This document shows positions 1 to 45,001 of a stretch of DNA of 45,001 nucleotides, piece after piece. Each line of letters starts with the position of its first letter. Positions within the stretch are counted from its first letter, which is position 1. The DNA comes from a virus: positions 1 through 45,001 of IMG/VR virus record IMGVR_UViG_3300043449_002207; one strand, written 5' to 3'. The notes under the pieces are model-generated. The model searched no databases, was not told where the DNA came from, and saw nothing but the letters and a program-made list of their open reading frames with translations. The translations under genes were made by a program, and so were the position numbers.

Positions 1-127
1 ATTGGGAACTCGAAAAGAAAAACGCCTTTATGCTCATAGGGTTTCTTACATGTTTTTTGTTGGCCCAATTCCAAAGGGAAAAGTTGTTCGTCATACCTGC
101 GACAATCCGTCGTGCATAAACCCAGAG
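1..127. repeat. 127-bp terminal direct repeat, left copy (circular assembly overlap)
   Basis: These bases are identical to 44875-45001. The length of exactly 127 matches a k-mer size commonly used by short-read assemblers, and the repeat lies inside a coding sequence, so it is best read as the overlap of a circular contig and not as a biological terminal repeat. Joining the ends keeps the HNH reading frame open. The unique genome is therefore 44,874 bp, and its ends here are arbitrary. Confidence 0.93.
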
Positions 128-337
128 CATTTAAAACTTGGAAGCCAGCCTCAAAACATTCAAGATATGGTCGAGCGTGGTCGATGCAAAAATCAAAACG
201 CTAACAAAAAACTTTGCAAGAATGGGCACGAGTTGTCTGGCTCAAACTTAACCATTGAATCAACAGGGTTTCGTCGTTGTAAAACCTGTCGTAATATTTA
301 TTTAAAAAATTGGAGAAAAAGAAATGACCGAAAATAA
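1..337 (+). CDS. HNH endonuclease, C-terminal part (continues from 44771 across the circular join)
   Basis: This is the 3' part of a gene that begins at 44771. Joined across the repeat, it gives a 146-residue protein. The segment AHRVSYMFFVGPIP, then RHTCDNPSCINPEHL, is the classic HNH_3 core (His-Arg, then H-x-C-x5-C-x-N-P-x-H-L) of free-standing phage endonucleases, which cut DNA and often act as homing enzymes. A second Cys cluster follows (KLCKNGHEL, then CKTC), probably a zinc ribbon that binds DNA. The end overlaps the recT start by 14 bases. The gene sits between the exonuclease and annealase genes of one recombination operon, which suggests insertion of a mobile homing-type gene. What it cuts is not visible. 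Confidence 0.85.
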   Translation, partial: LGTRKEKRLYAHRVSYMFFVGPIPKGKVVRHTCDNPSCINPEHLKLGSQPQNIQDMVERGRCKNQNANKKLCKNGHELSGSNLTIESTGFRRCKTCRNIYLKNWRKRNDRK

Positions 338-1160
338 TTCAGAAGAAAAAAAATCACGAGCCATTGCGCCGATTGATGAAGTAAAATCAGCAATAGTAAA
401 AATGGAAAGTCAATTTGCAGCGGCCTTACCAGAGCATATTCCAATTGCTAAATTTACTCGCGTACTTCAAACCCTTGTTCAGCTTCGCCCAGACCTTGCT
501 CAATGCGACCGAAGGAGCCTGTATGGTGAAATGATGAAGTGCGCTCAAGACGGACTCCTTCCAGACGGCAGAGAAGCAACAATAAATTCATATGGCGGCC
601 AAGCCAAATACCTTCCAATGATAGGCGGCATATGCAAGAAGGCCAGAAATAGCGGAGAGATTCAAAACCTTGACGCCATAGAGGTTTTTGAAAATGATTT
701 TTATGAATCATGGGTTGACGAAAAAGGCCCACACTTTAAACACAAAAAAGCCATCAAAAACAGGGGCGCCCCTGTTCTCACTTACGCATATGCCATTACA
801 AAAGACGGCGGCTTTTTCTTAGAAGAAGTTGACGAGGAACAAATGAACGCCATTGAAGCTTCTTCTAAAGCTAAGACTGGGCCTTGGAAGGGGCCGTTCC
901 GAGGAGAGATGAAACGTAAGAGCGCGCTTCGCAGATTGTTAAAATATAAAGTTCCATCAAGCACTGACTTGGATGGAGTAGTTGAAAGAGACAGCGACAT
1001 TTACGACTTAAACCAAGAAGCTCCAGCGACCGCACCTAAGCCAGAACCAAAAACAAAATCATCACGGTTATCAAAAGCCATGGGAACAGAAGAACAAGTC
1101 GAAGACGCTGAAGTTGTAAGTCCGCCAAACCAGAATGAGGAAGCCGAAATTCCCCTATGA
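324..1160 (+). CDS. recT: RecT-family single-strand DNA annealing protein
   Basis: The 278-residue protein matches the RecT pattern: ALPEHI near residue 34, the MMKCAQDGLLPDG segment near 70-82, and MIGGICKKARNSGEI near 99-113, followed by a mid-protein core rich in basic residues. RecT proteins coat single-stranded DNA left by a partner 5'-3' exonuclease, anneal it to complementary strands and promote strand invasion. The partner is the YqaJ-type exonuclease at 43824, upstream in the same operon across the join. The last 50 residues are acidic and of low complexity, as is usual for the tail of this family. The ATG at 324 overlaps the HNH gene, with GGAG upstream at 312. Confidence 0.92.
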   Translation: MTENNSEEKKSRAIAPIDEVKSAIVKMESQFAAALPEHIPIAKFTRVLQTLVQLRPDLAQCDRRSLYGEMMKCAQDGLLPDGREATINSYGGQAKYLPMIGGICKKARNSGEIQNLDAIEVFENDFYESWVDEKGPHFKHKKAIKNRGAPVLTYAYAITKDGGFFLEEVDEEQMNAIEASSKAKTGPWKGPFRGEMKRKSALRRLLKYKVPSSTDLDGVVERDSDIYDLNQEAPATAPKPEPKTKSSRLSKAMGTEEQVEDAEVVSPPNQNEEAEIPL

Positions 1161-1387
1161 AAAAAGCCACGTTCGATAAGCGCATTCACATGACACCTTT
1201 GGAACTCGCCGTTAGGTGGGCAACAACTCCGCGCACCCTTGAAGACTGGAGAACCGACGGCAAGGGGCCTAAGTATCTTAAGCTCGAACCGCATAAAGGC
1301 GGCAAGGTTGTTTATCGTCGTAGAGATATCTCTGCTTACGAAAAAAAAGTTGAACAAAAACCGAGGGGAAAAAGTGCAGGGCGTTGA
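1157..1387 (+). CDS. Small helix-turn-helix DNA-binding protein (excisionase/MerR-like)
   Basis: The 76-residue protein starts in a 4-base ATGA overlap with recT. TPLELAVRWATTPRTLEDWR, followed by GPKYLKL and then VVYRRRDISAYEKK, is the layout of the HTH_17/AlpA-like winged helix: a recognition helix ending in W-R, a G-P-x-Y/F-x-K strand, and a wing ending in (R)-x-x-D-(I/L)-x-x-(Y/W). Proteins of this type act as excisionases, directionality factors or small transcription regulators. No integrase is present, so a regulatory role for this early operon is the better guess. The target is unknown. Confidence 0.7.
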   Translation: MKKATFDKRIHMTPLELAVRWATTPRTLEDWRTDGKGPKYLKLEPHKGGKVVYRRRDISAYEKKVEQKPRGKSAGR

Positions 1388-1511
1388 ACATAAGTGCCAG
1401 ACTTGCGGCCATACTTGGATTGATAAGGAACGAATCGTGGTTTGTCCGCAGTGCAGTTCAAGCGAAGTGATTATTGAGGGGAAAGATTATGCAGAACCAA
1501 GCCCCAATTAA
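1374..1511 (+). CDS. 45-residue zinc-ribbon protein
   Basis: A GTG start at 1374 follows a strong GAGGGG site with about 4-5 bases spacing. The reading frame also extends upstream to 1239, but that part lies wholly inside the HTH gene and has no ribosome site, so I chose 1374. The product has two knuckles, CQTCGHTW and CPQCSSSE, spaced as in a rubredoxin-like zinc ribbon, with an aromatic residue after the first. Such mini-ribbons bind nucleic acid or protein partners. The gene overlaps the end of the HTH gene by 14 bases and the start of the next gene by 23. Confidence 0.7.
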   Translation: MQGVEHKCQTCGHTWIDKERIVVCPQCSSSEVIIEGKDYAEPSPN

Positions 1512-1740
1512 AATTCACGGAATGCAATTTCTTTGCGACCTTCCTATCGAAGCGGAATACCTGCGTGAATGTATCGGCATGAATCACACGGACGAAGAAC
1601 GCTCGGACGGTTACGAATACTTAGACCATTTAAAAAAGTTCGTAACAGCTTGGCGAAACAAAAGTGATTGGAGTTTCGCCAACATGCTCGCGGAAAAAAT
1701 AGCAATCATCGAAAGAATTTTACACGATGACTGCACATGA
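1489..1740 (+). CDS. Hypothetical protein (83 aa)
   Basis: The ATG at 1489 has GAGGGG eight bases upstream; an in-frame TTG at 1474 lacks a site and is rejected. The protein is mixed alpha/beta by eye. It begins MQNQAPIKIHGMQFLCDLP and ends in helices rich in Trp and Lys. I do not recognise a family. It overlaps the zinc-ribbon gene before it and the membrane peptide gene after it, so it is translated as part of the same early operon. Confidence 0.65.
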   Translation: MQNQAPIKIHGMQFLCDLPIEAEYLRECIGMNHTDEERSDGYEYLDHLKKFVTAWRNKSDWSFANMLAEKIAIIERILHDDCT

Positions 1741-1804
1741 TTGGGCTCAGTTGGAACTTTTGGCCTTGGTCGTTTTGGCCATATGGCTTTTGTTGTATCT
1801 ATGA
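1727..1804 (+). CDS. 25-residue single-span membrane peptide
   Basis: The ATG at 1727 overlaps the last codons of the preceding gene and the frame ends at TGA 1802-1804. The product starts MTAHDWAQLE and then has about 15 hydrophobic residues (Leu, Val, Ala, Ile, Trp) to its end, so it is almost only a membrane anchor. It fills the gap between two genes, and the AAAGGGG site for the next gene starts right at its stop codon, which suits a coupled gene. No clear ribosome site of its own is visible, so this is a candidate. Tiny phage membrane peptides of this kind can inhibit or tune host envelope functions. Confidence 0.45.
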   Translation: MTAHDWAQLELLALVVLAIWLLLYL

Positions 1805-1817
1805 AAGGGGTTATTAA

Positions 1818-2096
1818 GTGGGAGAGTTAAATTTTGAATGGGCACTGAGAGAACTCAAGGCGGGCAAGAAGGTTGCGCGCTCGGGTTGGAATGGCAATGG
1901 AATGTTCATCGTTTTGCAAGAAGGATATCCTGACGGCATCGCGATTAACGCCAACACTGCGAAGGCGACTGGCATCCAACTTGGAACGGTCTGCAAATTC
2001 CTTCCTTACATTATGATGAAGACTGCGCAAGGAGCATTCGTTCCTTGGACGGCAAGTCACGCGGATATTTTGTCCTGCGATTGGGACAATGTTTAG
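1818..2096 (+). CDS. DUF2829 / Tad2-like anti-Thoeris protein candidate
   Basis: A GTG start lies seven bases after AAAGGGG. The 92-residue protein has the DUF2829 signature throughout: FEWALRELKAGKKVAR, then SGWNGNGMFIVLQ (residues 22-34), then PYIMMKTAQGAFVPW (63-77) and a final D-I-L-x-x-D-W. DUF2829 is the family of Tad2, a phage sponge that binds the cyclic ADP-ribose-type signal (1''-3' gcADPR) made by Thoeris defence TIR proteins and so blocks NADase activation; some members also bind cyclic dinucleotides. The length fits the family, which forms tetramers. The setting among small early genes fits counter-defence. Membership is well supported, while ligand and activity here are inferred. 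Confidence 0.82.
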   Translation: MGELNFEWALRELKAGKKVARSGWNGNGMFIVLQEGYPDGIAINANTAKATGIQLGTVCKFLPYIMMKTAQGAFVPWTASHADILSCDWDNV

Positions 2097-2107
2097 AGGA
2101 GAAACAA

Positions 2108-2344
2108 ATGAAACAGAAATTAATAAGAAAGAAATATGGAAAAGAACCTCGCGCTAAAGTCGCGAACTGGCTTGTCGTTGCGATTCAAGGCGGCAAGAAA
2201 AGTTATGATTATTTTATGAATCGAGATGAAGTCAGGGTGGCACTTAAGCTTTTAACAAAGTGCAAGGGAACTGTGATTCAAGTATTCAGATTACACGACG
2301 AATTCGTCGAGGGTTGGGAGACCGTCAATGCAACATCCAAATAA
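2108..2344 (+). CDS. Hypothetical protein (78 aa)
   Basis: The ATG at 2108 follows AGAGGAG with good spacing, so I use it in place of a longer frame that begins inside the Tad2-like gene. The protein is basic at its N terminus (KQKLIRKKYGKEPRAK) and then has an alternating pattern suggestive of a small alpha/beta fold. No family is recognised. It overlaps the next gene by 17 bases in another frame. Confidence 0.6.
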   Translation: MKQKLIRKKYGKEPRAKVANWLVVAIQGGKKSYDYFMNRDEVRVALKLLTKCKGTVIQVFRLHDEFVEGWETVNATSK

Positions 2345-2648
2345 ACCAGAAGAAGCGGTAACAGGAGAGCAGACCCCAATCGGAGAAACGCTTGCTGCTG
2401 CACCAAACAACGTAACTCAAATGCCTGGCGCCCTGCCGCCAAAAAACATTTGCGACCAAATGCTCAAGGCCAATGAAGCTTACGACAACGCACGCAAAGC
2501 CAGCGACGCTATGCTTGAGAACCAAAGACAGGGTCGCGACCTCATGAAGCAAGCGCAAGAAACAAGCGCCATTCTTATGACAGAGCATAAGACATTGTCT
2601 GATATGGTTTGCGAGTGGAAGGGAACTTCTCCGAAGACGCAACCATGA
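2328..2648 (+). CDS. Hypothetical helical protein (106 aa)
   Basis: The start ATG lies inside the end of the previous gene, and the stop overlaps the next start in ATGA fashion. The first 40 residues are rich in Pro, Thr and Ala and look disordered. Residues 40-95 form a long helix with Asn, Ala, Met and Gln. No family is recognised. Confidence 0.6.
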   Translation: MQHPNKPEEAVTGEQTPIGETLAAAPNNVTQMPGALPPKNICDQMLKANEAYDNARKASDAMLENQRQGRDLMKQAQETSAILMTEHKTLSDMVCEWKGTSPKTQP

Positions 2649-2830
2649 ACCGAAAAATAGTCATTGAATTTTACGTCGACGGTTGCAAAGACGAAGAAGC
2701 GGACGAGCAATCCGAAGCTTCTGCCGTCGAGCAAGAATACAACAAGCTTCGCGATAAAATGGAAAAAGTATTTTACGTTGAGAAGGCACTATTTGAGATT
2801 TCAGAAATTGAAACTCACATGCCACACTAA
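2645..2830 (+). CDS. Small acidic protein (61 aa)
   Basis: It starts in a 4-base overlap with the previous gene. MNRKIVIEFYVDG gives a beta strand, followed by a very acidic stretch (DEEADEQSEAS) and a helix. Small acidic early phage proteins are sometimes DNA mimics that block host nucleases or defence proteins. The charge fits that idea, but nothing more specific supports it. Confidence 0.6.
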   Translation: MNRKIVIEFYVDGCKDEEADEQSEASAVEQEYNKLRDKMEKVFYVEKALFEISEIETHMPH

Positions 2831-2841
2831 AGGAACCCCAT

Positions 2842-3108
2842 ATGAGTGACGCTCAAAATAAGGCAATGGAAAAAGCTGCTGCCAAAATTAAACTGCTGAA
2901 AGAATTCGCAGAGACCCTCAAAGAAGACGGCTTCGTCATGGCAGTTATCGTTGCCCAAATGAACGAGCACGTCGGCCAGGTTCGGGTCATCGGGGCCAAT
3001 TCCCATAAGGAAGCCCTGCCGATTTTTGACATGGCCAAAGCTATCTGCGCGGGGGCCGATAACGACCCGCATCAGAACATGAAAATTGACCCAGTAAAAA
3101 AGAGTTAA
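2842..3108 (+). CDS. Hypothetical protein (88 aa)
   Basis: The ATG follows AAAGGA with 8-9 bases spacing. The protein starts with a charged helix (SDAQNKAMEKAAAKIKLLKEFAETL) and continues with a strand-rich part ending near VKKS. No signal peptide or motif is recognised. It is the last gene before a 36-base gap that carries TATAAA-like sequence, which may separate two transcripts. Confidence 0.6.
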   Translation: MSDAQNKAMEKAAAKIKLLKEFAETLKEDGFVMAVIVAQMNEHVGQVRVIGANSHKEALPIFDMAKAICAGADNDPHQNMKIDPVKKS

Positions 3109-3144
3109 CCTGTTATAAACTTATAAAGAAAGAAGGAATTACCT

Positions 3145-3495
3145 ATGACAAATATGACAAAAGAAGAAGCCGCAAACATTGGAATCAAAGAAACCAAAGA
3201 AGTCGCAGAGCTAGTCTCTGAAGTTGTGAAAGGCTTTATCGCTGCTCGCAAAGATGGCAAGTGGGACGCTGCTGATATTGGATACCTGCTTCCTGTATTC
3301 GGAAAGCTTGGCCCAGCACTTGAGAATTTCGCCGCAGTTGGAACAGAAATTAAAGACCTCGACGCTGCTGAGATTTCTTCTATTGCAGCGACGCTCTTGA
3401 GCGGCGTTGTTCTCGAAGAAGGCAAAATGAAAATTTACATTGAAGAAGGATTGCAAGTTGTAATCTCTGTCTTCAAAATTATCAAGGCGAAATAA
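3145..3495 (+). CDS. Helical phage protein of unknown function (116 aa)
   Basis: It has a good AGAAGGA site. The whole protein looks helical, with a central DGKWDAADIGYLLPVFGKLGPAL segment and a later DLDAAEISSIAATLL segment. From memory, small helical phage proteins with this D-x-x-D-x-G/L and paired-helix layout are often encoded next to holins and spanins, but I cannot confirm homology. It is followed three bases later by a membrane/coiled-coil gene and then a lipoprotein, so a place in the lysis set is possible. Confidence 0.6.
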   Translation: MTNMTKEEAANIGIKETKEVAELVSEVVKGFIAARKDGKWDAADIGYLLPVFGKLGPALENFAAVGTEIKDLDAAEISSIAATLLSGVVLEEGKMKIYIEEGLQVVISVFKIIKAK

Positions 3496-3498
3496 TTT

Positions 3499-3750
3499 AT
3501 GTGGTTAACGATTGTCGGGAGCCTTATCGAACTTCTTACTCCGTTCGCGGAGAAGTCTCTGATTAAAAAACTCAGAGAACACTCCGACCAATTAATTGTG
3601 GTCGAAAGAAAATTGAACATTGCCAACGCAGCGTTCATGGATAACACCGACAATCGTGACGACTTAGAGTTCGTCGCCCTCATGAAAGAAAAGAAACTCC
3701 TGATGGAAGCCATGCAGCGAGACCTCGCTCTGGCCCAAAAGCAAACATGA
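3499..3750 (+). CDS. Membrane-tethered coiled-coil protein, possible inner-membrane spanin
   Basis: The 83-residue protein opens with MWLTIVGSLIELLTPFA, a short hydrophobic segment, and continues as a charged helix likely to form a coiled coil (VERKLNIANAAF, then MKEKKLLMEAMQRDL). This layout fits an inner-membrane spanin, which spans the periplasm and pairs with an outer-membrane lipoprotein to fuse the membranes at lysis. The next gene is a lipoprotein that starts in a 4-base ATGA overlap, the usual arrangement for spanin pairs. The hydrophobic stretch is shorter than a typical membrane span, so the call is tentative. Confidence 0.45.
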   Translation: MWLTIVGSLIELLTPFAEKSLIKKLREHSDQLIVVERKLNIANAAFMDNTDNRDDLEFVALMKEKKLLMEAMQRDLALAQKQT

Positions 3751-4199
3751 GAAATACAATTGTATTACTCTTGGGCTTATCCGCCTGCTCGACTGGAAAA
3801 ATTTATGAGCGTGGCCCCACCAAAGAACTCGTGCTCCGTCCGCGTGCAGGCTATCAAGACAAGCTCACAAATAAGCGCTGCTCTGAGCGAAAAAAAAACA
3901 CAAACGATTGCATAAGTTATGACATCTCAGAATTCGATTTCAACTCGAACGATGTCCGAAAGCTATTGCGTGACTTGAAGTTTATCTGCAACGTGCGCGG
4001 AGAGAGGTTCGTTCCATGCCCAACGGCTCGCGGCCTTTGTCAACTTAAAGAAGTTACGACCGGCACTTGGCCATTCCGCAAAACAGAAATTAAATTAAAT
4101 AAATATTTATCGCTGCACGACGATTATGAATTCTTGATTGGGGCCGACACCTATTGCGCTTCAATATATTCTGATGTCGGCTCTCAAATGTTTCCTTAA
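3747..4199 (+). CDS. Lipoprotein, possible outer-membrane spanin
   Basis: MRNTIVLLLGLSACS is a short lipoprotein signal with lipobox L-S-A-C, giving a predicted lipidated Cys14. The mature part has about 137 residues and five or more further Cys, so disulfides in the periplasm are likely. It overlaps the coiled-coil gene before it by four bases. It is longer and less proline-rich than usual outer spanins, so a separate envelope role such as exclusion of other phages remains open. Its stop overlaps the stop of the endolysin gene on the other strand by four bases. Confidence 0.6.
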   Translation: MRNTIVLLLGLSACSTGKIYERGPTKELVLRPRAGYQDKLTNKRCSERKKNTNDCISYDISEFDFNSNDVRKLLRDLKFICNVRGERFVPCPTARGLCQLKEVTTGTWPFRKTEIKLNKYLSLHDDYEFLIGADTYCASIYSDVGSQMFP

Positions 4200-4885
4200 C
4201 TGTAACGATAATATTCGAAATGCATTCCGTCTTTTCGGCCACGGTAATTCCCGCCCCAAAATAAATTGTAACGATTCGCAATTGCAACAACCCTTAAGTC
4301 CATTGCTGGAGTTGAATCGCCAAGCTCGTTTCCTTCGTAGTTAATATCAATAGCTATTCCGAAGGAGTGATTACTTAAATTACTTGAGCCGCTAATCTGT
4401 CTCCAGTTAAAGCATCCATCATATGAATAAATCTTACTGGCCAAACCTTCGGCGACCACGTCACGAAAGAACGCTCCGAAGACTGGAACCATAAGGCGGT
4501 GACAAGTAAATCCACGCTTCCCATTCTTCTTTGGGAAACAAGTGAGCGCGTCTGGAACCTCACAAAAAGCAAGCTGAGATTCAACTACCGATTGCGTGGC
4601 CCCGAATATCTTTTTGGCTTCAGCGGTTGACGAAGGAATCTTTGGAAACCCTTCTGCGGGGCCTTGCTCGATTGGAATACTTCCAGCAAACAACGCACCG
4701 TAAGTTATAGGCCCGACCTTGCCGTCAACAACGAGGCCGTTTTTCTTTTGAAAATCTATTACCGCTTTTTCTGTTATCGGCCCAAACATTCCATCAGCAC
4801 TGCCAACGAGCCAACCAAGCTTTATTAATTGGGACTGAACCTTAACGACTTCTTTTCCAGATGAACCTTTTTTTAAAGTTTCCAT
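4196..4885 (-). CDS. Endolysin: peptidoglycan-binding domain plus M15 D,L-endopeptidase/carboxypeptidase
   Basis: Residues 5-65 form a PG_binding_1 domain (KKGSSGKEVVKVQSQL, later GMFGPITEKAVIDFQKK and DGKVGPITY). The C-terminal half is an M15/VanY-type zinc peptidase: SNHSFGIAIDI supplies His173 and Asp180, and GMHFEY supplies His222, the three expected metal ligands. Such enzymes cut peptide cross-links of peptidoglycan to release virions. No signal peptide is present, so a holin would be needed for export. I start at the ATG at 4885 and not at a TTG 33 bases upstream, which overlaps the previous gene. The gene lies directly downstream of another lytic enzyme. Confidence 0.88.
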   Translation of the reverse strand: METLKKGSSGKEVVKVQSQLIKLGWLVGSADGMFGPITEKAVIDFQKKNGLVVDGKVGPITYGALFAGSIPIEQGPAEGFPKIPSSTAEAKKIFGATQSVVESQLAFCEVPDALTCFPKKNGKRGFTCHRLMVPVFGAFFRDVVAEGLASKIYSYDGCFNWRQISGSSNLSNHSFGIAIDINYEGNELGDSTPAMDLRVVAIANRYNLFWGGNYRGRKDGMHFEYYRYS

Positions 4886-6345: not shown

Positions 6346-8742
6346 TTAGTTGTTTCCTTCAAAAACGACCTTGTTAAGTTTACCAACAATATCGTTTGTT
6401 GCGGCTCCCGCGCCTGCCGCAGTTCCCGTAATTTTTAAAATGTTTGTATTGGTCAAAGTTAGGCCGGTTACTTCGGTGTAACCCGCATTAGCCGCTAAGG
6501 CTAAGCCCCCACTTGCGTTCATTGTCGTTGAGCACCGGACAACGGTTGAGCTAACTCGAATACATATAACATCAACGTCCCATGACGCCGCAGCGGTTGT
6601 AGCGAGTGCTGTAGAATCAAAAACTACAGTCCCCCCAAAATAAACTTTTACCTGTTTTGTAGAAGTTGAGTTGACTACTGTACCCGCATATCTTGCGCGA
6701 ACACTATGGCCGTTAACGTCGAGCGTGCTGGCGGGTGTTGTGTAAGTGTAAAGGTCAGTTTCACTCGTCGTTGTATTTCCGGCATCGGCAAATCCTTCTG
6801 TTAAAGTTCCGCCAGTCGCATAGCGAACATTACTTGCTTTAGTTTGGAAGTGGGTTCCGTTATATTCGTGACTACCGGCTTCAGCGGTTGTGTTTATTGT
6901 TCCCGAATCAAACTTTAATGGAGATGTTCCGGCTGTAGCTGAACCGGCTTTGACATGAACATTGGCTGAAATAGACCCAACGCCCAAGCCAACACCTACA
7001 CCTGCACTATTTATTCTAATGTAATTACCAGAATTGCCCGGGTCGTTAAGATACAGCGCCGCTGCCTGCATTGAAATCGCGGTAGTAGATCCAATATAAA
7101 AATCTAAATTTGCTGACTCTTGTTGAGTCATTCTCCAGTTAGTACTCGATGCTGAAGGGTATCCCATTATTACCCCATCGGTTGACGTTTCTCCGCTTGT
7201 CGTCGAATGGGTAAATTGCGCCATGTTTGCCTTAGCCCCAGTAGTGGCCGCATCAATATGTAACAGAGATGTCGGAGTTAGCTCGTTAATCCCTAAGCCT
7301 GCCGATGTAAAATTACCATCAACTGTGGTGCCATTCGTAAATCTAATGCCTGAGTTTGTTATTCCGATTTGTTTACTGAAATCGTTGCTGTATAATTGTG
7401 TTTGGGAATTACTGACGCGAACTTTAACCCCACCAGGAGAAGTTAAATCTATAGAGCCGCCAGTCTCTTGGTTTTGTATAACAAAATCAGTTCCGCCGGT
7501 ATTCCCCACTATCACGCCATCGGTAGCGGTTGTCCCTGTGCTTGTTCCCGCAAAAAACTGCAAATACGATGCGATAGCGTTGCCTCCGTTAATCTTGAGT
7601 CTTTTATTTGTTGTATCGTAAACAAAATCAGAAGTTCCCGTTAAAACGTTAGAGCCATCGCCATAACCCACATAGGTAGAGGTTAAAGCAGCTGAACCGC
7701 CGCCGGCAGGGGTTGCCCAGGTTCCATCGCCGCGCCAAAATGTCGAAGAGGTTGCGCTTGTGCCTGAATTTAAATTTGTGACAGGGAGATTTCCTGTTAC
7801 ACCAGTTGATAGCGGCAAGCCCGTTGCGTTTGTCAAAGTTCCCGAAGTGGGGGTTCCCAAAATAGGAGTTACAAAAGTGGGTGACGTGGCGAATACGGCA
7901 GCGCCGGTTCCAGTCTCGTCGGATATAGTATTTTTTAATTGCAACGAAGTTGTCGCAGCAAATTGCGAAAGCGGATTAGCAACGAGAGCGTCTCCGCCGC
8001 CAGAGGGTGCGGCCCACGTTCCGTCACCACGCCAAAACGTGGATGCCGTTGCCGCAGTTCCGCTGTTTAAATTTGTTACAGGAAGGTTGCCAGTTACTCC
8101 AGTTGAGAGTGGAAGGCCAGTCGCATTCGTTAAAGTTCCCGAGGTGGGCGTTCCAAGTATCGGGGTTACGAAAGTCGGAGAAGTTGAAAAAACTAAAGAG
8201 CCTGTTCCAGTTTCATCCGTGACCGCAGTAATTAAATTCGCAGAAGACGGAGTCGCGAGCGCAGTCGCAACGCCAGTTCCAAGTCCCGACACTCCAGTCG
8301 CAATAGGTAAACCAGTCGCGTTGGTGAGAGTCCCCGAAGTTGGCGTTCCAAGAATAGGAGTTACGAGCGTTGGCGATGTTGCAAAACATGCAGCGCCCGA
8401 GCCAGTCTCGTCGCTTAAGGTATTTTTTAATTGAAGCGAGGTTGTCGCCGCAAACTGAGAGAGCGGGTTCGCAACAAGAGCGTCACCTGTTCCAGCAGCG
8501 GTCGCCCACTTTACTCCGAGAGTTTGCGCGCTATCTGCGGTGAGAACCTGTCCATTGGTTCCGACAGGAAGTCTTGCGTCGACAGAGCTATATGTCCACA
8601 CGTCTCCCTTTGTTGTAAGCGGAGAGGTGCTTCCGCTTCCCCCTTGATTCACTCCTGAAATATCAGGATAGACCGTGGTCGTGGCCCCAGCGAACATGGT
8701 CGCCAAAAGTGTGAGTGATAAAAATAGTTTATTTTTTTTCAT
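6346..8742 (-). CDS. Secreted-type tail fibre/appendage protein with internal repeats
   Basis: The 798-residue protein starts with a signal-peptide-like sequence ([22 protein letters not shown]). It then has repeats built of [18 protein letters not shown], then [17 protein letters not shown], then [11 protein letters not shown], a module common in phage and metagenomic tail fibres, followed by a Gly/Thr/Ser-rich beta region. Residues from about 450 on look like a beta-structured fibre shaft and tip. No S74 chaperone motif is visible. It would help bind the host surface. A Sec signal on a virion protein is unusual, and a secreted or cell-surface role is the alternative. AGGAG precedes the ATG. 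Confidence 0.78.
7687..8472 (-). repeat. Imperfect tandem repeats inside the fibre gene
   Basis: The coding sequence carries three or more diverged copies of a unit that encodes [20 protein letters not shown], and two copies of the longer block ending in FWRGDGTW plus [21 protein letters not shown]. Copies differ at many third codon positions, so they are old duplications under protein-level constraint and not recent slippage. They could recombine with each other or with fibres of other phages. Confidence 0.8.
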
Positions 8743-10073: not shown

Positions 10074-13000
10074 TCACTTACTTTGCTTTCCTGTAATCAG
10101 TCCTTGAGTAAAATCGACAGGCCCTTCAGGCTCAGCGTCACCCGACACAACGTCCTTTAAGTAACCAACAGGCTTTTGGAAGCCGCCTAGGGGAATAGTC
10201 CTGCCTGTTGCTCCAGAAGCCACGAGCCCCAATAGGGTCATGCCATCTTTAAGGTCTCGGGTTTTGAATTCCTTGTCGTCCGACAAAAGCTTAACGCCTG
10301 AATAAATACCACGAACCCCACTTTCAAGGGTCGATACGGCAGGAGAGAGCGAGAGCTTGTCGTCCGTGTAAGTCGGCCTGTCCTCAACCCCAAAAACCTG
10401 ATTGATATTTTTGTCAAAATACTTGCGGCTATAGTTTATTGTCGGCCCCACGAGGGGAATCATTGCCGTTCCGAACCTAAACTGAGAGTCAAAAAACGTA
10501 TAAATAAAATCATCTAAGTATTCTTCGTCGTCGTCTTCGTCGAGCTTGCCGCGCATTCCCTTGATAATAAGGTCTCCGCCAACGGCCAGCATCATGAAGC
10601 CCATGGTGTAAATTGTCCCGAGCCTTGCGGTCGCCTGCTTGGGCGTCAAAGTTTTGAGAGCCACATTTGCTTCGGTATTTATCATATTCCCGATGACGTT
10701 AAAAAATCCTGTATACATGGAAAAATTTCGATACCAAGGAGAGCCAGTTTCAATTTCGGAAACTCCGATTGAGCGTTGGTCGCCTTGAGTCGTGCGAACT
10801 GTCGCGTCCGCATGGCGAACTGCTCCGTCTATTTCAAGCCCGCGTGACAGTGCGGAGTTGTAAGCAGCAAGCCACACAATGTTCGACGTTTGCCTCTGGG
10901 TCATCTTCATGAGAGCAAACGAGTTCGCCTCAAGGAAGTCTGCTGCTTTCGTTATACGGCTTGGATTAAGGGCAATTCCCTTAAGGTCACGTTGCGCTTC
11001 AGCAGCGCCTTCTTCAATCTCGGTTCTCATGAACTTAGATTTTTCAGCAATAAAATTTGCGGTATCATTTGGCGCCGTCAAATAAGAAACCGTGGCCGCG
11101 CGCGTATGTTTCAGCGAATTCCACAAACTTCCTTGGTCGATATTTACTTGAGCAGGAAACAACGAAGCATAGTTTTGCAGTGCGTTGCCAAAGTTCCATA
11201 TCATTGTGTTTGCCGTGGCACTTGCCTTGAGGAACCCTGCAAAATCGTTGAGCCATTTTTTTGTCTTGCCGTCAGTAAAAACAACTCTGTTTGTCGAAGC
11301 TCTTTGCAAGAACGGCTCAAGCAAGTTCTCAATGACCGTTGGGTCAACCGCATGAATCGAAGCGGAGAACTCTTTATTGTAAAGCAAGCGAGCCGCCTGC
11401 TTCACTGGAGCCCGCATGTTGATGAACTTCAGAACATTATCTAAGTCGCGGTTCGTTTGTTGCAAGTCCAGAGACAGGGGCGAGAAAAATTTCACGCGCT
11501 CCTTGGTCATTCCCTTGGACACGTTCGGCATTTCATAGCCAGGGTTGCTTTCAAGAATTTCACTCTTAAGAGCATTCCTTGCGACGCTTGGGTTTGCCGA
11601 GCGGTCGTAAACGAGCGGAACATATCCGCCCTTATAGCGACCAAATGGGGTTACTATTTCTTGAGCTTTAATCTCGTTGAAATAATAACCAGTGTCTTTT
11701 TTGTGGGCAGCTTGAGCGCGAGGTTTTAATTCCTCATAAATGTTCCAGGTATTTTGGATGTATTCCATGTCGGCCTGCGTGATGCGGCCTTCTTTATACA
11801 TTCGGTTCATGAACTTATTCCAGTTCGTGGGGTCGACCTCGCCGTTCTCGTCAATAGTTCCCCAACCAAAACCCCCAAGGAGTTTCATCAAGTTCGACAG
11901 GTTTCCAGTGTGTTTTATCGCAGCGATTAAATCGAGTTTATTTTTAAACTGAGTTACTGAGCCGTCAGCTTTTCGGCCAAGCTCAGAAGCTTCGATAGGT
12001 TTCCAGTCGTTATCACTGAGAGACTTCGCCCACTCTTTAGTAAGGCCAACAAACTTTTGATAGTAGTTGTTTTTGTCCAGAATGTAATTTGTGAACGCAT
12101 CATTGATAGGTTCCCAGAAATACTTATTCCAGGGGCCGCGAGCGCCTAAGTCCATTGTTCGAACCCAAGCTTCAGTTCTTAACATGGAGTTTTTCCATCC
12201 GAGAACTTTAATTTTGAATTCGTCCCAACGAGTTTTTTCGTGGTCGTACTTCTGCGGATTTTTTCCATGCTCATCGTTTTGCAACATGGTTTCTTCTTTG
12301 ACCTTATCGAACTCAATTTTCTCTTGAGCGAGTTGAAACTGTCTTGCGTCCCTGCCGATATCTCTCATTGCGCGCATGTCATCAACAAGCTGCGAATATC
12401 TTGCGACACTCAACGTCTGCCAACCTGCCGCGCCTTGAAGTGCGCTATCCATGATCGGCTTAAGCATTGCGTGAGTGATCGGGTCATAGTTTTGAATCTT
12501 TTCCAAATACTCGTCAGCTTGCAAGGGTTGCTCTGGCCCAATTCCGAATTGAGCAAGGATTGCTTTTTGAACCATAAGATAATCAATGTCGCGAGTCTTC
12601 GCGGCGTCTTGAGTTTTGGTGCGGTAAATTTGTTTAAATAAATCGTTGCCTTTTTTGGTGAGCGCCTTAACTTCCAGCGCTGCCTTATAAAGTTCGTGAT
12701 TAAGAAGCTGCTGGCGTTTAGCTTCAATGAAGCCTGCAAAGTCTCCTTGAGAAAGGAGAACCCCTGCTTCACGAGCGGCCTTCGCGCCTGCGCGCTGATA
12801 ATCAATCGGACGAATATCCACGACACGCTTTTGCTGCATCATGAGCTTTGCTTGCTTACGACGAGCAGGGTCGGTGAAATTTATTCTTGTCCCACGACGA
12901 ATTAAATCTTTCAGAACGGCAGGGTTATTTTCAACAACGTGCTGCCATTCCATTTCCATAACCTTCGTCCATTCGTCGTTATGGATTGCATCGAGTGCAG

Positions 13001-16000
13001 CTTGGGCGAGTTCTCCGCTTTCAAGTAAGTCAGGGAACAGGTCGGACATTTCAGCTTCGACCCTTGCTTCAATGATTTCGCTTCTGTTTCCAGCTTTCGA
13101 AATCGCTTCGATTAATTCCTTGCCATTCTTGAAGCCCAACTGTTCGGCAACCATTTCAACCGGCATTCCGTCAACCTGGGTTGTCCCGCTGGGCATAGCC
13201 TTATAAGAGTCAGCGTAAAGTTTTTTAACTTCCTCGCGGTTTATTTTTAATTCGAGTCCATCTTTTTCGAGGGTTGTGTTTTTTATGAGGTCAATTGCCT
13301 TGAACCCTGGCGAATTGTTTACATCCGCAGTGATATTAGTTTCGACTTCTTTGCGCTTTGCCTTGTATTCGGGTTGGCGTTTAACGTCCGAATCTCTCAT
13401 CAGCTTAGCAAGTAAAACTTCGTCGGAATTTCTGCGAGCTTCATCAACCGCATTCATGTATCGAACTTGCTGCTCGGGGTTCATCCCCAAGGCAGCAGCG
13501 GGCAACACTGAATAGTTCATTGTGTCTTGGGCTTTTTTAATTTCTTCTTTGGTCGCGAACATTCTATCGAGAACGTCTTTGATTTCAGGAGTTATCTGCA
13601 CGCCGTAACGCTGAAAGTAAGTGTTCTTGATAGAACCGTAAATCGAAGTAAGCCAGTTCTTAAACCTGTCGAAGACGCGCTTGAGAGCGGTGCTTGGAGC
13701 CACGCCACGCATGACGTATGCTTCCAGGGTCTCAGCAAATTTCTCTTGCTGGAACTCTTTAACTTCCCCAATATCTTTCACTTCGAGATATTTAAGAATC
13801 TCTTGAAAGTCTTGTTTCAACTCCGCACTTGCTTCGGGCCTGCTCACGAGGTCATTTAAAACCCGCATGTAAAGGTGCCCAGTCTCGTGCAGGAATGACG
13901 ACTTGTCTTTTCCTTGGAACAGACGAATGATTGTCTCGCCTTCGCGCATTGCAATTTGAGCGAGAGGATTATTTTTGTCTTGATAAAAAGTTTGTGGCTC
14001 TTTTATTTTGTAAAGTCGTTTCCCTTTTTTCTCATATCCATAAGGGACTTCGTTTCCAAAGGGCCGGTTTTGTTGATTCCAAAACCCCTTGCCGTCTTCG
14101 GTTTGCCAACTCGATGGACGAATAACCTTTTTCGTATCACGTTCTACGGCTTGATAAATAGCAGTCGCAATGCCCATTCCCTGTAATGCATCAGTAACCT
14201 TAATTCCATTTTCGCCGTCAGAATCGTCGGCGACCCATTGGTTTCCATCTAAACGAAAGTGACCTTCTCCGACACCTGAGCCGCCTTGTTTTTCAGCAAA
14301 GACAGTTATTTTATCTTTAACTTCTCCGACGATTTCGCCGTCTTCGTCAAACACTGGGTCGTAGGAAACGCTAAAGTTCCATCCTGCCGCTTCGAGACGG
14401 ACAAGAGAGTTGTCGCCTTTTTTTTGATTGAACGATTCCTCATCCGCAACGAGGCCCTCACTTTGAGCCCAGTCAGGAAGGAGCCCAACTTTTTGGTCTG
14501 CAAATACAGTGTTCGCGGGGTCGGTTTTATTTGTTTCCGCATGAGGGCCGAAGTTCACCCAAGAATTTTGTCCTCGGGTTTCGGTCGTCATCGCTTTGGC
14601 AGCGAGCGCGGAATACATGCGAACGTGTGACTGCCACGCATTTTCTTCTCCGTTTTGGCCGAAAGAGTTTCCTTCTTTCACATGGCCAAAAATATCGTGA
14701 ACGATTCTGAACACGTCATTTGCAAGAAGCGGCTTTCCGTTTGAATCAACTTCATTGGTCGGAGCCAGCAGCGGATTATTTTCCACATTGTTCTCGGTTC
14801 CAAAGCCTTGATCGGTTGAGAAAAACCACATATGCCCACTTGCCACGTCATCAAATAAAGCTTGCGACGAGGCGTAAGGGTTGGGCGCGCCCGCAGGAAT
14901 AGCTTCAATTTTCAAACCCATTTGTTTTACAATTTGAAATTGAGAAATAGTTTCTTGGATAAGAGCAGCGTAAGCCGCTTTGACTTCAGGGTTGCTTGGC
15001 TCGTGCTTCATTGCCTCAAAGGCATCAGCGATTTTCTTGGAACGAACAGGGTCAACGCGAGCATATTCAGATTGACGAGCAACCTTCAAGCCAGAGTTTC
15101 GAACGTAATTTTCTGCTAATTGTCGGACGGATTGGTTTGGTCGGGCGGAGTTTGTTGGGGCGTTTCGGAGCGGTTCGCTTGGTGCCATCGCCGCTGCATT
15201 GCTACTTTGTCCTGATTCGAGTCTTCCTCGTCGCTGATTAGCTGCGAGTTCTCTTGCTTGCTCGACTGATTTTGTGGCGAGGAGTTGGCGGACTTCTCCT
15301 TCGCTTGCATCTTGGACTTCATTCTTAAAGTTTACACCATAACGCCCCTCAAGCTCAAGTAAAGATTGCGTTGTGGCCTTCTCAACTGGCGACTGATTTA
15401 AAGCCCCTGCCGCAGCAGGAGTGTCGGCAGCTTCGATTCGAACTCCGTACTTGTTGAAAAGTTCGACAGGGTTTAAGCCTTCTCGTTCTGCCAAAGTCTT
15501 GAATACCGCTTCGACTGCCGCCGCATTATCCTTAGCTTCTTGAGGGGAAGCTCTGCCTGTTTTGATTAATTGCTCCTCAATGCTTTGTCTTATTGGTGCG
15601 GTTTCGTCGAGTTTTTTTACAGTCTCAACGTGTTGTTGCTCGGTCTTCGCGTCGGCCTGAACTTGTTCGTCGGCCTTGGTCAAGGCATCGGCTTCGTCTT
15701 TTTGTTGATTGAACGTGAGCATTTCAGAATCGAACTTCACGTCGTCTTTGAGTCCAGCATAGTGTTCAGTGTCGACAAGCTTGTCGAGCCAAACAGAATA
15801 CGGAACTGCAACGTCTCCGCCAGTTTCAACGGCTTCGTCGTATTTTTCCCGAACTCCAAGGGTCTCGCTGAATTCAGCGGGGCTTAAATCTTTGCTTTGT
15901 AAATACTTCTCATAAGCTGCGACTGGAACGAATACAGTTTCAGGGCCATCTTTTGTAATTTCTTGAACGAGTTCAGTCTGTGAATCAGAAGAACGCTTTT

Positions 16001-17462
16001 TAAGTTTTGGAACCTTAACCTTCTCGGCCATCTTATCGTAATACTGGCGAGCGATATTTGTTTGCGTTGCTTGTTGGTGTTTAGCAATCGCAGTTGTGAT
16101 TGTCGCAGGGCCAGAGAACAGTCCGCCCGAAGCGCCGCCAACAAGTCCAGCGTTTACGGTTTGGCCAGCTAAGTCTTTGAGCGCGTTCTTATCAACGCCA
16201 GTTAAGTAATCAGTGTAAGCTTGGCCGACTTGCGTGAGCATTTCTTCTCCGCCTTCAGACAAGGTCGAAGCCGCCATGGTTTTTCCAAACGCGAGCATGA
16301 CTTCTTTGGTGACGTTCTTGCCGAACTGTTTCAGCAACGCTTTTTCCCAGTGCTTAAAAACTCCGAAACTAATTGATTCCACACCCGCCTCAATCGTTCC
16401 ATAAATGGAAGCGTCCAAGAGAGCTTGATTTTTTGTGAATTGTTCTTGCTTTTGAGTTGGGGCGTCTGGGCTCATGAGTTCCAAGAAGCCTGGCTCGCCT
16501 GGGCGCGGAGCACTGCCGCCTTCCATGCTGATAGCAGGAGCCCCACTATCTGCCGCTGCTTTTTGATCGGCAGCAATTTGCTTTTGCTTCTCAAGGTTTT
16601 GGTCGTATTTCTGAGCGCCAGAAGTGATTCCGATTCCAATGAGCCCAGCTTCACCGAAGCCAGTCGCGAATGCGACAAGTGCCGCCATGCTGCTTGGGGC
16701 GGAATTCACCGCCTGAATAAATAAAGCATTCGCTGCCTTCGCCTTGTTCCCCGCTTTTATCTCGCGGAAAATATCAACCCCTAAGTCTGGAATTTTACTT
16801 CTCTCATAGTCCGCGATGTCGTCAAAAAACTTTGCAACATCTTTCCCATAGTTATCCTCAGGTGCGTCAGGAAGGCGAGGAATGTTTTTTCCAATGTCCG
16901 ACAAAGTGCCAGTAAAATTATTCTGCATTTCGTCAAGAGTGTTATTCGTAACTGTTTGACCAACATCGTAAACGAATCTTGGAGCTTTTGCTATGCTGGA
17001 AAAAAGCGAAGCCATTCCGCCATTGAGCGCGTGATAAGCTTTACTGAGTCCAGTGTATTCGTGGGTCGTGTCTTCAATGTCTTGCAAAGGAGCAAGGTCG
17101 TCTTTTGCCAAAGCAGCGTTATCGGAGTTCGATAACCATTGAGTAAGGCGCGGGTTCTTGTCGACCATTCCGTCGTAATCAATTTGCGTATCAACTTTTT
17201 TTGAAAGTGAGTCGAAGTTCCGATCAACAAACGAAGGCGGCAGGCTCAATTTTTTTGAGATATCCAAAACCTTTGCTTGCTTGTCGGGACTCTTATCTTT
17301 CGCAACGAACATGGATTGCTGCAAAGAAGCTTTGCTTTCCCCACGTTCTTGGTCGGCTATTTGATCGAATACTCTTTGTTCAGCAGGCTTTGGAGCTTGC
17401 ACCGAGAGTTGGTCGTCAACGGTTGATTCTGCCGCCAGAAATGAATCGAGGTCATTTTCCAT
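10074..17462 (-). CDS. Giant internal virion/ejection protein, polyvalent type (2462 aa)
   Basis: This is the largest gene, placed as the last of three internal virion proteins, where T7-like phages encode gp16. Visible parts: a hydrophobic segment near residues 255-280; a conserved domain with NDVFRIVHDIFGH (915-927, His922 and His927) and TTETRGQNSW (959-968), as in large phage polyvalent proteins; a GNAT-like QGMGIA loop (1094-1099); an HETGH motif (1192-1196) typical of zinc metallopeptidases; long charged helices; and a hydrophobic stretch near 2290. Polyvalent proteins are packed in the virion and enter with the DNA. Likely roles are a DNA-ejection conduit plus enzymes that modify host proteins on entry. 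Enzyme activities are inferred from motifs only. AGGGG precedes the ATG. Confidence 0.82.
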   Translation of the reverse strand: MENDLDSFLAAESTVDDQLSVQAPKPAEQRVFDQIADQERGESKASLQQSMFVAKDKSPDKQAKVLDISKKLSLPPSFVDRNFDSLSKKVDTQIDYDGMVDKNPRLTQWLSNSDNAALAKDDLAPLQDIEDTTHEYTGLSKAYHALNGGMASLFSSIAKAPRFVYDVGQTVTNNTLDEMQNNFTGTLSDIGKNIPRLPDAPEDNYGKDVAKFFDDIADYERSKIPDLGVDIFREIKAGNKAKAANALFIQAVNSAPSSMAALVAFATGFGEAGLIGIGITSGAQKYDQNLEKQKQIAADQKAAADSGAPAISMEGGSAPRPGEPGFLELMSPDAPTQKQEQFTKNQALLDASIYGTIEAGVESISFGVFKHWEKALLKQFGKNVTKEVMLAFGKTMAASTLSEGGEEMLTQVGQAYTDYLTGVDKNALKDLAGQTVNAGLVGGASGGLFSGPATITTAIAKHQQATQTNIARQYYDKMAEKVKVPKLKKRSSDSQTELVQEITKDGPETVFVPVAAYEKYLQSKDLSPAEFSETLGVREKYDEAVETGGDVAVPYSVWLDKLVDTEHYAGLKDDVKFDSEMLTFNQQKDEADALTKADEQVQADAKTEQQHVETVKKLDETAPIRQSIEEQLIKTGRASPQEAKDNAAAVEAVFKTLAEREGLNPVELFNKYGVRIEAADTPAAAGALNQSPVEKATTQSLLELEGRYGVNFKNEVQDASEGEVRQLLATKSVEQARELAANQRRGRLESGQSSNAAAMAPSEPLRNAPTNSARPNQSVRQLAENYVRNSGLKVARQSEYARVDPVRSKKIADAFEAMKHEPSNPEVKAAYAALIQETISQFQIVKQMGLKIEAIPAGAPNPYASSQALFDDVASGHMWFFSTDQGFGTENNVENNPLLAPTNEVDSNGKPLLANDVFRIVHDIFGHVKEGNSFGQNGEENAWQSHVRMYSALAAKAMTTETRGQNSWVNFGPHAETNKTDPANTVFADQKVGLLPDWAQSEGLVADEESFNQKKGDNSLVRLEAAGWNFSVSYDPVFDEDGEIVGEVKDKITVFAEKQGGSGVGEGHFRLDGNQWVADDSDGENGIKVTDALQGMGIATAIYQAVERDTKKVIRPSSWQTEDGKGFWNQQNRPFGNEVPYGYEKKGKRLYKIKEPQTFYQDKNNPLAQIAMREGETIIRLFQGKDKSSFLHETGHLYMRVLNDLVSRPEASAELKQDFQEILKYLEVKDIGEVKEFQQEKFAETLEAYVMRGVAPSTALKRVFDRFKNWLTSIYGSIKNTYFQRYGVQITPEIKDVLDRMFATKEEIKKAQDTMNYSVLPAAALGMNPEQQVRYMNAVDEARRNSDEVLLAKLMRDSDVKRQPEYKAKRKEVETNITADVNNSPGFKAIDLIKNTTLEKDGLELKINREEVKKLYADSYKAMPSGTTQVDGMPVEMVAEQLGFKNGKELIEAISKAGNRSEIIEARVEAEMSDLFPDLLESGELAQAALDAIHNDEWTKVMEMEWQHVVENNPAVLKDLIRRGTRINFTDPARRKQAKLMMQQKRVVDIRPIDYQRAGAKAAREAGVLLSQGDFAGFIEAKRQQLLNHELYKAALEVKALTKKGNDLFKQIYRTKTQDAAKTRDIDYLMVQKAILAQFGIGPEQPLQADEYLEKIQNYDPITHAMLKPIMDSALQGAAGWQTLSVARYSQLVDDMRAMRDIGRDARQFQLAQEKIEFDKVKEETMLQNDEHGKNPQKYDHEKTRWDEFKIKVLGWKNSMLRTEAWVRTMDLGARGPWNKYFWEPINDAFTNYILDKNNYYQKFVGLTKEWAKSLSDNDWKPIEASELGRKADGSVTQFKNKLDLIAAIKHTGNLSNLMKLLGGFGWGTIDENGEVDPTNWNKFMNRMYKEGRITQADMEYIQNTWNIYEELKPRAQAAHKKDTGYYFNEIKAQEIVTPFGRYKGGYVPLVYDRSANPSVARNALKSEILESNPGYEMPNVSKGMTKERVKFFSPLSLDLQQTNRDLDNVLKFINMRAPVKQAARLLYNKEFSASIHAVDPTVIENLLEPFLQRASTNRVVFTDGKTKKWLNDFAGFLKASATANTMIWNFGNALQNYASLFPAQVNIDQGSLWNSLKHTRAATVSYLTAPNDTANFIAEKSKFMRTEIEEGAAEAQRDLKGIALNPSRITKAADFLEANSFALMKMTQRQTSNIVWLAAYNSALSRGLEIDGAVRHADATVRTTQGDQRSIGVSEIETGSPWYRNFSMYTGFFNVIGNMINTEANVALKTLTPKQATARLGTIYTMGFMMLAVGGDLIIKGMRGKLDEDDDEEYLDDFIYTFFDSQFRFGTAMIPLVGPTINYSRKYFDKNINQVFGVEDRPTYTDDKLSLSPAVSTLESGVRGIYSGVKLLSDDKEFKTRDLKDGMTLLGLVASGATGRTIPLGGFQKPVGYLKDVVSGDAEPEGPVDFTQGLITGKQSK

Positions 17463-43230: not shown

Positions 43231-43455
43231 TTACAGTTATTCAGCACGAGAGTTACTTCTCTCCTGCGCCCCTCTCCTTTAGACATTGCGCTATTAAACG
43301 TACTCAACCCACACTTAGCAAGTTCAACACGGAAAAATAATTCAACACGGAGAGACGAACGCGCTCGCGTCAAGAAAAAAATGATGGACTATTGCAAAAA
43401 TATTTTTCCTTCGTTAGCTTGGCCTGAAACCGAACACGGAATAACACGGAGAACT
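43231..43455. promoter_or_regulatory. Divergent control region with AACACGGA repeats
   Basis: This 225-base region separates the leftward replication operon from the rightward recombination operon, so it should hold promoters for both. Four AACACGGA words lie in it. I see no convincing -35/-10 pair by eye. A frame open from 43381 could extend the next gene upstream but lacks a ribosome site. Confidence 0.5.
43326..43450 (+). repeat. Four AACACGGA direct repeats
   Basis: AACACGGA occurs at 43326-43333, 43344-43351, 43433-43440 and 43443-43450. The first two are parts of an 11-base repeat TTCAACACGGA, 18 bases apart; the last two are 10 bases apart. The last copy supplies the GGAG that acts as ribosome site for the gene at 43456, so binding there could also affect translation. 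Confidence 0.8.
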
Positions 43456-43827
43456 ATGAACGAAGCAAAGCCCAATCCTATCTTTACCGATGCAGAAAAA
43501 AAAGTCAGACGCATAGACCCTGTCGAGGTTTATTTCGAACTCGGGCGCTATAAAATGCGCAAGTCCATTTATCATCCTGAACAATTAGCAGAGTTAACAG
43601 AGTATGAGCGCCGCGCCCTGCCAGCACTTTCAAAAAACTGTAAGCTAACCGACGACCTTATAGGAGCGGAACTCTTGCTTCACGAAAAGGCTTTTGAAGG
43701 TGCCATCAACGAACTGTTTAAGCGCGGCAATAAATGGTATCGCTGGAAGCGTCACGTTCCAACCTTGTTATGGTGGCTCGGCGGCAATATTTCAGGCGCT
43801 CTTTATTTTTATTTGGTGACTCGATGA
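43456..43827 (+). CDS. Hypothetical protein with hydrophobic C terminus (123 aa)
   Basis: I start at ATG 43456 because GGAG lies five bases upstream; the frame is open further up to 43381 without such a site. The protein is charged and helical (FTDAEKKVRRIDPVEVYFEL, then RKSIYHPEQLAELTEYERR) and ends with a hydrophobic, aromatic stretch (VPTLLWWLGGNISGALYFYL) that may anchor it in the membrane. It is coupled to the exonuclease gene by an ATGA overlap. No family is recognised. Confidence 0.6.
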   Translation: MNEAKPNPIFTDAEKKVRRIDPVEVYFELGRYKMRKSIYHPEQLAELTEYERRALPALSKNCKLTDDLIGAELLLHEKAFEGAINELFKRGNKWYRWKRHVPTLLWWLGGNISGALYFYLVTR

Positions 43828-44771
43828 TTGAAAGAATAATTCCACGAGACGAAACCCACTGGAAACAGCTTCGTCTTTTGGACATTACCTCAACCGAAGT
43901 GAGTGCGCTTTTTGGGCTCTCTCCATACGCCACTCACTTCGAAACTTTTCACCGTAAGCGCGACCAAGTAATAATTAATTTTGCGGCCAACGCTCGCATG
44001 AAGTGGGGGACTCGTCTCCAGAATTCCATTGCCGCAGGTATTGCCGAAGACAATGGTTGGCAGGTTCGCGAAATGAAGGAGTATGTTCGAGACCCAGAGA
44101 CGCGGATGGGCTCATCTTTTGATTTCGCGGTGGTCGAGAACTTGCCTGTCACGCCAGAGGCCAGCGCGCTTCACTCGCTTAAGGATGTTGCAATCCTTGA
44201 AATTAAAAACGTCGACGGCCTGGCCTTTCGAAATGGATGGGAGATTAACGGCGACGACATAGAGGCGCCTGCCCACATTGAACTTCAAGTTCAACATCAA
44301 CTCGCCCTGACTGGCCTGCCTGTCGCATACATTGGAGCGCTCATTGGCGGCAACGAAGTTAAACTCCTCAAGCGTGAGCCCGACAAAGCGGTCATCGCAA
44401 AGATAATAGACGCAGTAAAAAAGTTCTGGGAATCTATTCGCCTGAATTGTCCGCCCGCTCCCGACTTTGCACGCGACGCTGAGTTTATCTCAAAGCTTTA
44501 CTCCTTTGCCGACCCTGGCAAAATTGTTCCAGCTTCGGAGTCCGTCCGCCAGTTAGCGGAAACCTATAAACACTTTGGCGACATGGAAAAAGAAGCCAAG
44601 GCTCAGAAGGATGCAGCGAAGGCAGAGATACTTACTATCATTGGAGACGCAGAGAAGTGTAAGGGCGAAACCTTTACGATATCCGCCAGTGTTATCGGCC
44701 CCTCAACGTATGAAGTAAACCGCGAAGCCTATCGGACTTTTAAAATCAATTGGCGTAAGGTGAATAAGTGA
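43824..44771 (+). CDS. YqaJ-type viral recombinase exonuclease (RecE/lambda-Exo role)
   Basis: I use ATG 43824 (ATGA overlap); the frame is open 90 bases upstream inside the previous gene. Motifs of the PD-(D/E)XK YqaJ family: ITSTEVSALFG (21-31), a GSSFDF Asp (Asp100), ILEIKNV (Glu126-x-Lys128) and IELQVQHQLALTG (152-164). The helix after MKWGTR reads LQN where many members have Leu-Glu; this may be tolerated. The enzyme digests 5' ends of double-stranded DNA to feed RecT, which is encoded downstream past the HNH gene. The 315-residue length fits the family. Confidence 0.88.
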   Translation: MIERIIPRDETHWKQLRLLDITSTEVSALFGLSPYATHFETFHRKRDQVIINFAANARMKWGTRLQNSIAAGIAEDNGWQVREMKEYVRDPETRMGSSFDFAVVENLPVTPEASALHSLKDVAILEIKNVDGLAFRNGWEINGDDIEAPAHIELQVQHQLALTGLPVAYIGALIGGNEVKLLKREPDKAVIAKIIDAVKKFWESIRLNCPPAPDFARDAEFISKLYSFADPGKIVPASESVRQLAETYKHFGDMEKEAKAQKDAAKAEILTIIGDAEKCKGETFTISASVIGPSTYEVNREAYRTFKINWRKVNK

Positions 44772-45001
44772 TGGGAAACATGTCTCGGTTTATTTCAAAG
44801 TTTACTCCCAACTCAGAAGGCAAATGCTTTAATTGGAAAGGGACTTCCCTGCCTTCAGGCTATGGGGTCTTTTCATTGGGAACTCGAAAAGAAAAACGCC
44901 TTTATGCTCATAGGGTTTCTTACATGTTTTTTGTTGGCCCAATTCCAAAGGGAAAAGTTGTTCGTCATACCTGCGACAATCCGTCGTGCATAAACCCAGA
45001 G
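44771..45001 (+). CDS. HNH endonuclease, N-terminal part (continues at position 1)
   Basis: The ATG at 44771 shares one base with the exonuclease stop codon (TGATG). The start reads MGNMSRFISKFTPNSEGKC, then FNWKGTSLPSGYGVFSLG, the beta-hairpin front of HNH_3 proteins. The frame stays open to the window end and, past the 127-base overlap, to 337, giving 146 residues in all. This part overlaps the left copy over the repeat. Confidence 0.85.
   Translation, partial: MGNMSRFISKFTPNSEGKCFNWKGTSLPSGYGVFSLGTRKEKRLYAHRVSYMFFVGPIPKGKVVRHTCDNPSCINPE
44875..45001. repeat. 127-bp terminal direct repeat, right copy
   Basis: Identical to bases 1-127. It should be trimmed once when the genome is closed to a circle. 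Confidence 0.93.

Follow-up and report, generated by a model that had tools for sequence, protein, structure and literature searches.

A Tad2-like protein encoded in the recombination operon of an uncultured podovirus-like phage

Known Tad2 proteins

Tad2-like proteins, which constitute the Pfam family PF11195 (formerly DUF2829), are common counter-defence proteins of phages; the members that have been tested sequester chemical alarm signals that trigger bacterial anti-phage defence, and their ligands vary by branch. According to the passages of PMC13299392 that cite them, SPO1 Tad2 acts against type I Thoeris with gcADPR as its ligand, and ModTad2, from a prophage of Myroides odoratus, acts against type II Thoeris with His-ADPR as its ligand. 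In SPO1 Tad2 two protomers contribute to the pocket, one with the loop beta1-beta2, the loop beta3-beta4 and strand beta4, the other with the loop beta1-beta2, the loop beta4-alpha3 and helix alpha3 (PMC12043709). Several cyclic dinucleotides are bound by some Tad2 proteins; in HgmTad2, according to a review, the site for such ligands is part of the beta2-beta5 insertion (PMC12043709). The ligands of the solved proteins thus differ, being His-ADPR, gcADPR or cADPR isomers, and cGG. A single Tad2-like protein of 97 residues (P015), 50% identical to ModTad2, is encoded by the Sinorhizobium podovirus AP-20-A (PMC13299392); going by that description the case resembles ours, in that AP-20-A is likewise an environmental podovirus and P015 is also closest to ModTad2.

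Genome and gene organization

The window, by which we mean the whole stretch of 45,001 nucleotides that was analysed, starts and ends with the same 127 bases, indicating a complete genome, 44,874 bp in length, with a circular map or terminal redundancy. The genome is podovirus-like; its major capsid protein is of the GP7 type, and a head-tail connector is also encoded. Assignment of a host through the terminase was rejected, as 43% identity to Xanthomonas phage proteins is too distant.

The tad2-like gene belongs to a series of plus-strand genes that runs across the junction in the order small ORF, YqaJ, HNH, RecT, helix-turn-helix protein, zinc-ribbon protein, 83-residue ORF, 25-residue peptide, tad2 and further small genes (Table 1). 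The gene had been placed in an early operon by the sequence-only reading; the genes are co-directional, mostly overlapping and include YqaJ, HNH and RecT, which agrees with an operon, and from this we infer the early expression. A promoter scan of positions 1-4400 gave nothing above shuffled sequences, and four weak matches in 43000-45001, where 1.7 are expected, were not accepted as evidence. A candidate hydrophobic peptide of 25 residues, MTAHDWAQLELLALVVLAIWLLLYL, is encoded at 1727-1804 on the plus strand, overlapping the end of the 83-residue ORF and stopping before the Shine-Dalgarno sequence of tad2, and could be a tiny membrane protein.

Table 1. Coordinates of the tad2-like gene, its segments and the surrounding features in the window.
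Feature	Position	Strand	Basis
YqaJ-like exonuclease (longest ORF from 43734), in the tad2 operon, upstream across the ends	43825..44771	+	PF09588, 5.6e-17
HNH endonuclease, 3' part (start at about 44772, over the circular junction)	2..337	+	PF13392, 2.5e-13
RecT single-strand annealing protein	324..1160	+	PF03837, 4.3e-29
Small helix-turn-helix/excisionase-like protein	1157..1387	+	weak match, below cut-off
Zinc-ribbon-like protein, 45 aa	1374..1511	+	CxxC...CxxC in sequence; weak PHROG match
Protein of 83 aa, no convincing family (Pfam, PHROG)	1489..1740	+	
Shine-Dalgarno-like AAAGGGG, 8 nt 5' of the tad2 GTG	1803..1809	+	direct reading
tad2-like gene, 92 aa, GTG start	1818..2096	+	Pfam PF11195
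GWNGNGMF, residues 23-30, beta1-beta2 loop, pocket-lining in SPO1 Tad2	1884..1907	+	alignment, model
beta2-beta5 insertion, residues 34-61, branch motif GYPDGIxIN..TA..TG...GTVCKF	1917..2000	+	alignment, model
W..S..D....DW, residues 77-89, beta4-alpha3 loop and alpha3, second pocket-lining segment	2046..2084	+	alignment, model
Four small genes without a family (2108-2344, 2328-2648, 2645-2830, 2842-3108)	2108..3108	+	Pfam, PHROG
Exact repeat of 1-127, 127 bp	44875..45001	+	end comparison

Four other observations concern genes elsewhere in the genome. The gene for an aspartyl/asparaginyl beta-hydroxylase-like protein (29229-29852, minus strand; PF05118, 2.4e-13) adjoins that of the terminase large subunit, and a protein of 2462 residues with an LPD22 "large polyvalent protein" domain (10074-17462, minus strand; PF18834) is probably an internal virion protein that is ejected. 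A permuted papain-like amidase of the YaeF/YiiX type (37502-38137; PF05708) is encoded by a lone plus-strand gene among minus-strand genes. Tail-fibre-like and other proteins (6346-8742 and 36802-37401, minus strand) have signal-peptide-like N termini, which is unusual for phage structural proteins.

The Tad2-like protein

The ORF was found at the position that the sequence-only reading had given, on the plus strand and encoding 92 residues from a GTG start, and so were all the motifs it had quoted, namely GKKVARSGWNG, PYIMMKTAQGAFVPW and a terminal D88-W89. Its assignment to DUF2829 is confirmed by Pfam, where the product matches a single family, PF11195, over residues 5-90 with an E-value of 2.4e-25 and a score of 89.3 bits, where the cut-off is 25. 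PHROG 1048 is matched with an E-value of 2.9e-31 and PHROG 872 is matched too, both being without a function, and none of the NCBIfam profiles scores above its cut-off. Seven distinct chains were matched in a sequence search of PDB, every one of them a Tad2 or AcrIIA7 protein, with ModTad2 as the best (E 1e-14, about 43% identity) followed by HgmTad2/AcrIIA7 (6.6e-11), SptTad2 (1.6e-10) and SPO1 Tad2 (7.3e-9); a profile of the GYPxG branch described below found the same seven chains in PDB and added none. Judged from the sequence, the family match is far above chance, and the gene product is a real but fairly ordinary addition to a well-known family.

An AlphaFold2 monomer model, built from an alignment of 91 rows, has a mean pLDDT of 95. 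When it was searched against PDB, all 24 matches with E<=0.001 were Tad2/AcrIIA7 structures, the top one being ModTad2 with His-ADPR (9eib, TM 0.76-0.80), followed by apo AcrIIA7, SPO1 Tad2 with gcADPR, HgmTad2 with cADPR and SptTad2 with cGG. Where the top matches to predicted viral structures have a name, it is that of a "Thoeris anti-defense 2-like" protein. The fold is therefore that of Tad2, and the pocket-lining segments are retained as well: G23, W24, N25, D83, D88 and W89 are invariant among the 91 aligned homologues, and G26, M29, W77 and S80 are near-invariant (at least 90%). G23, W24, N25, G26 and M29 are located in the beta1-beta2 loop (about residues 22-30), and W77, S80 and D83 in the beta4-alpha3 segment (about residues 77-85). 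By alignment, every segment lining the known ADPR pocket is retained in the 92-residue protein; the pocket segments are shared with ModTad2, and the frame GWNG...W.PS..D...DW with SPO1 Tad2.

The GYPxGI branch and the possible ligands

Tad2-like homologues are frequent, being present in 302 phage records, 263 plasmid records and more than 500 stretches of IMG/VR. Some homologues have two domains in a single ORF (L100:4754- and L154:4691-), where a full Tad2-like domain is joined to a degenerate second one without GWNG (KRPHWAGYW...DW). In a tree of 127 representatives, which has few alignment columns and modest support, the 92-residue protein falls into a branch whose hallmark is GYPxG[IV]. 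ModTad2 belongs to a separate branch of 12 rows (support 98-99) that does not contain our protein, and HgmTad2, SptTad2 and SPO1 Tad2 to a third, so that all four structurally solved Tad2 proteins fall outside the GYPxG branch in this modestly supported tree. The GYPxGI branch makes up 63 of the 129 representatives kept, in a sample gathered with queries of the same type as our protein. Brevibacillus phage Abouo gp92 and three IMG/VR proteins (L034, L035 and L037) share the branch motif GYPDGIxIN...TATG..GTVC.F with 57-67% identity, but they are annotated as hypothetical and have other gene contexts.

The branch motif is part of the beta2-beta5 insertion, which in the model contains an extra strand (37-42) and a helix (45-51), and among the 22 closest relatives of the same length the pattern Q-x-G-Y-P-D-G-I-x-I-N-x-N-T-A-x-x-T-G-x-x-x-G-T-V-C-x-F-x-P-Y is strongly conserved. 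From beta2 to W77 there are 43 residues, compared with 38 in ModTad2 and SPO1 Tad2, 50 in SptTad2 and 56 in HgmTad2. ModTad2 has the insertion VPGGVYKSQTDVIKNTF without GYPDGI, and that of SPO1 Tad2 (gp34.65; PDB 8sme, 8smf and 8smg), which has the same fold with about 37% identity and is gcADPR-bound in crystals, is shorter and unrelated. HgmTad2/AcrIIA7 and SptTad2 (PDB 8kbi-m and 8wjd), solved with cADPR and/or cGG, also have the fold and an insertion between beta2 and beta5, but theirs is 7-13 residues longer and unrelated in sequence; the long insertion of their kind is thus absent here.

Two direct assignments of the ligand were rejected: His-ADPR on account of ModTad2 (9eib, 8v3e) being the closest PDB match, as the tree separates the ModTad2 branch, and cyclic dinucleotides on account of an insertion being present, as its length and sequence are unlike those of HgmTad2 and SptTad2. 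The separate branch and the different insertion mean that neither assignment can be transferred to the 92-residue protein. On sequence grounds, signal sequestration as such is well supported, and by analogy the most likely ligands would be the ADPR-type Thoeris signals, His-ADPR or gcADPR, which makes an anti-Thoeris role plausible. We therefore consider that the gene probably encodes a tetrameric sponge of the Tad2 family, likely for an ADPR-type Thoeris signal, that is expressed early with the recombination genes. The protein would be made in the early phase of infection together with the recombination proteins and, as in the family, would form a homotetramer whose pockets combine the GWNG loop of each protomer with the W..S..D segment of its partner. 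An NAD-derived or nucleotide alarm signal would be held tightly in these pockets between the protomers and not be degraded, the defence effector would stay inactive, and the infection would not be aborted.

The beta2-beta5 insertion is thought to set the ligand range, and a cyclic dinucleotide or a further signal is possible as the ligand because the GYPDGI insertion is unlike that of every solved member. Tentatively, the conserved insertion of the GYPxGI branch might bind a signal that is bound by no solved Tad2 and so counter other TIR or cyclic-nucleotide defences. A main target of the CBASS type, a cyclic oligonucleotide such as a cyclic dinucleotide, bound through the insertion of a sponge with the same fold, seems unlikely: the structures of HgmTad2 (8kbk) and SptTad2 (8wjd) contain cGG, the site is in that insertion (PMC12043709), and our protein has a distinct conserved insertion, five residues longer than in ModTad2 and SPO1 Tad2, but it does not reach the length of those in SptTad2 and HgmTad2 or resemble them, and 3'3'-cGAMP is not bound by SPO1 Tad2 (PMC11722364).

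Distribution and gene context

PF11195 was absent from all of the 27 virus records linked to the tad2 phage through the terminase or the capsid protein, 11 of which are over 40 kb, as is expected for an accessory anti-defence gene, and a pattern search for RecT relatives in IMG/VR gave none. One relative (G008/L353), whose capsid protein is 54% identical to that of the tad2 phage, has the same gene order of YqaJ, an HNH-type homing endonuclease (identified by sequence) and RecT, and the small genes that follow show no detectable similarity to their counterparts in the tad2 phage. The absence from the 27 records and the different genes behind RecT in this relative suggest that tad2 is accessory cargo; it looks like part of a variable region that follows conserved recombination genes. 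The neighbours of tad2 are, as the sequence-only reading had described them, small genes of no assigned role, with no convincing family in Pfam, PHROG or PADLOC. The counter-defence island that it suggested is only a possibility: the position looks like a variable cargo slot in the comparison with one relative, and none of the neighbours matches a known family.

In a survey of the neighbourhoods of 30 close homologues, made with crude ORF calling, genes for the terminase or the portal often lie close to tad2, and no defence-related gene turned up repeatedly as a partner. Around L025, L022 and L034-L055 the GYPxG tad2 genes are often found beside terminase, portal, minor head and scaffold genes, which constitute late modules. 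Such neighbours indicate that early expression cannot be generalized to the GYPxG branch, and that the location with recombination genes is particular to the tad2 phage. Many GYPxG homologues adjoin terminase, portal and minor head genes (as in SpaA1 and Vibrio 1.205), and the fold could then serve a housekeeping or virion-linked function, but this is improbable for the present gene, which is located in the recombination operon and is missing from relatives whose capsid protein is of the same kind, indicating that the virion can do without it. That the protein is an anti-CRISPR of the AcrIIA7 type, aimed at Cas9 instead of a signal, is hardly credible, for although AcrIIA7 is a named anti-CRISPR of the same Pfam family, with DUF2829 as the AcrIIA7 domain (PMC6739104), and PDB entries 8kbi and 9kzr are named as anti-CRISPRs, the AcrIIA7 structures contain 1',2'-cADPR and cGG, the identical sequence is also named HgmTad2, and just one of the AcrIIA7 homologues comes from a genome that has self-targeting type II-A spacers (PMC6739104).

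Significance

The sequence-only reading was thus correct on the family and careful on the function, and a sponge of the Tad2 family, likely for an ADPR-type Thoeris signal, is still the reading we prefer. Taken alone, a tad2 gene from an uncultured phage is an ordinary example, and the added value lies in the GYPxGI branch, which is large, lacks a solved structure and keeps its insertion strongly conserved, and is therefore a promising place to search for new immune signals.
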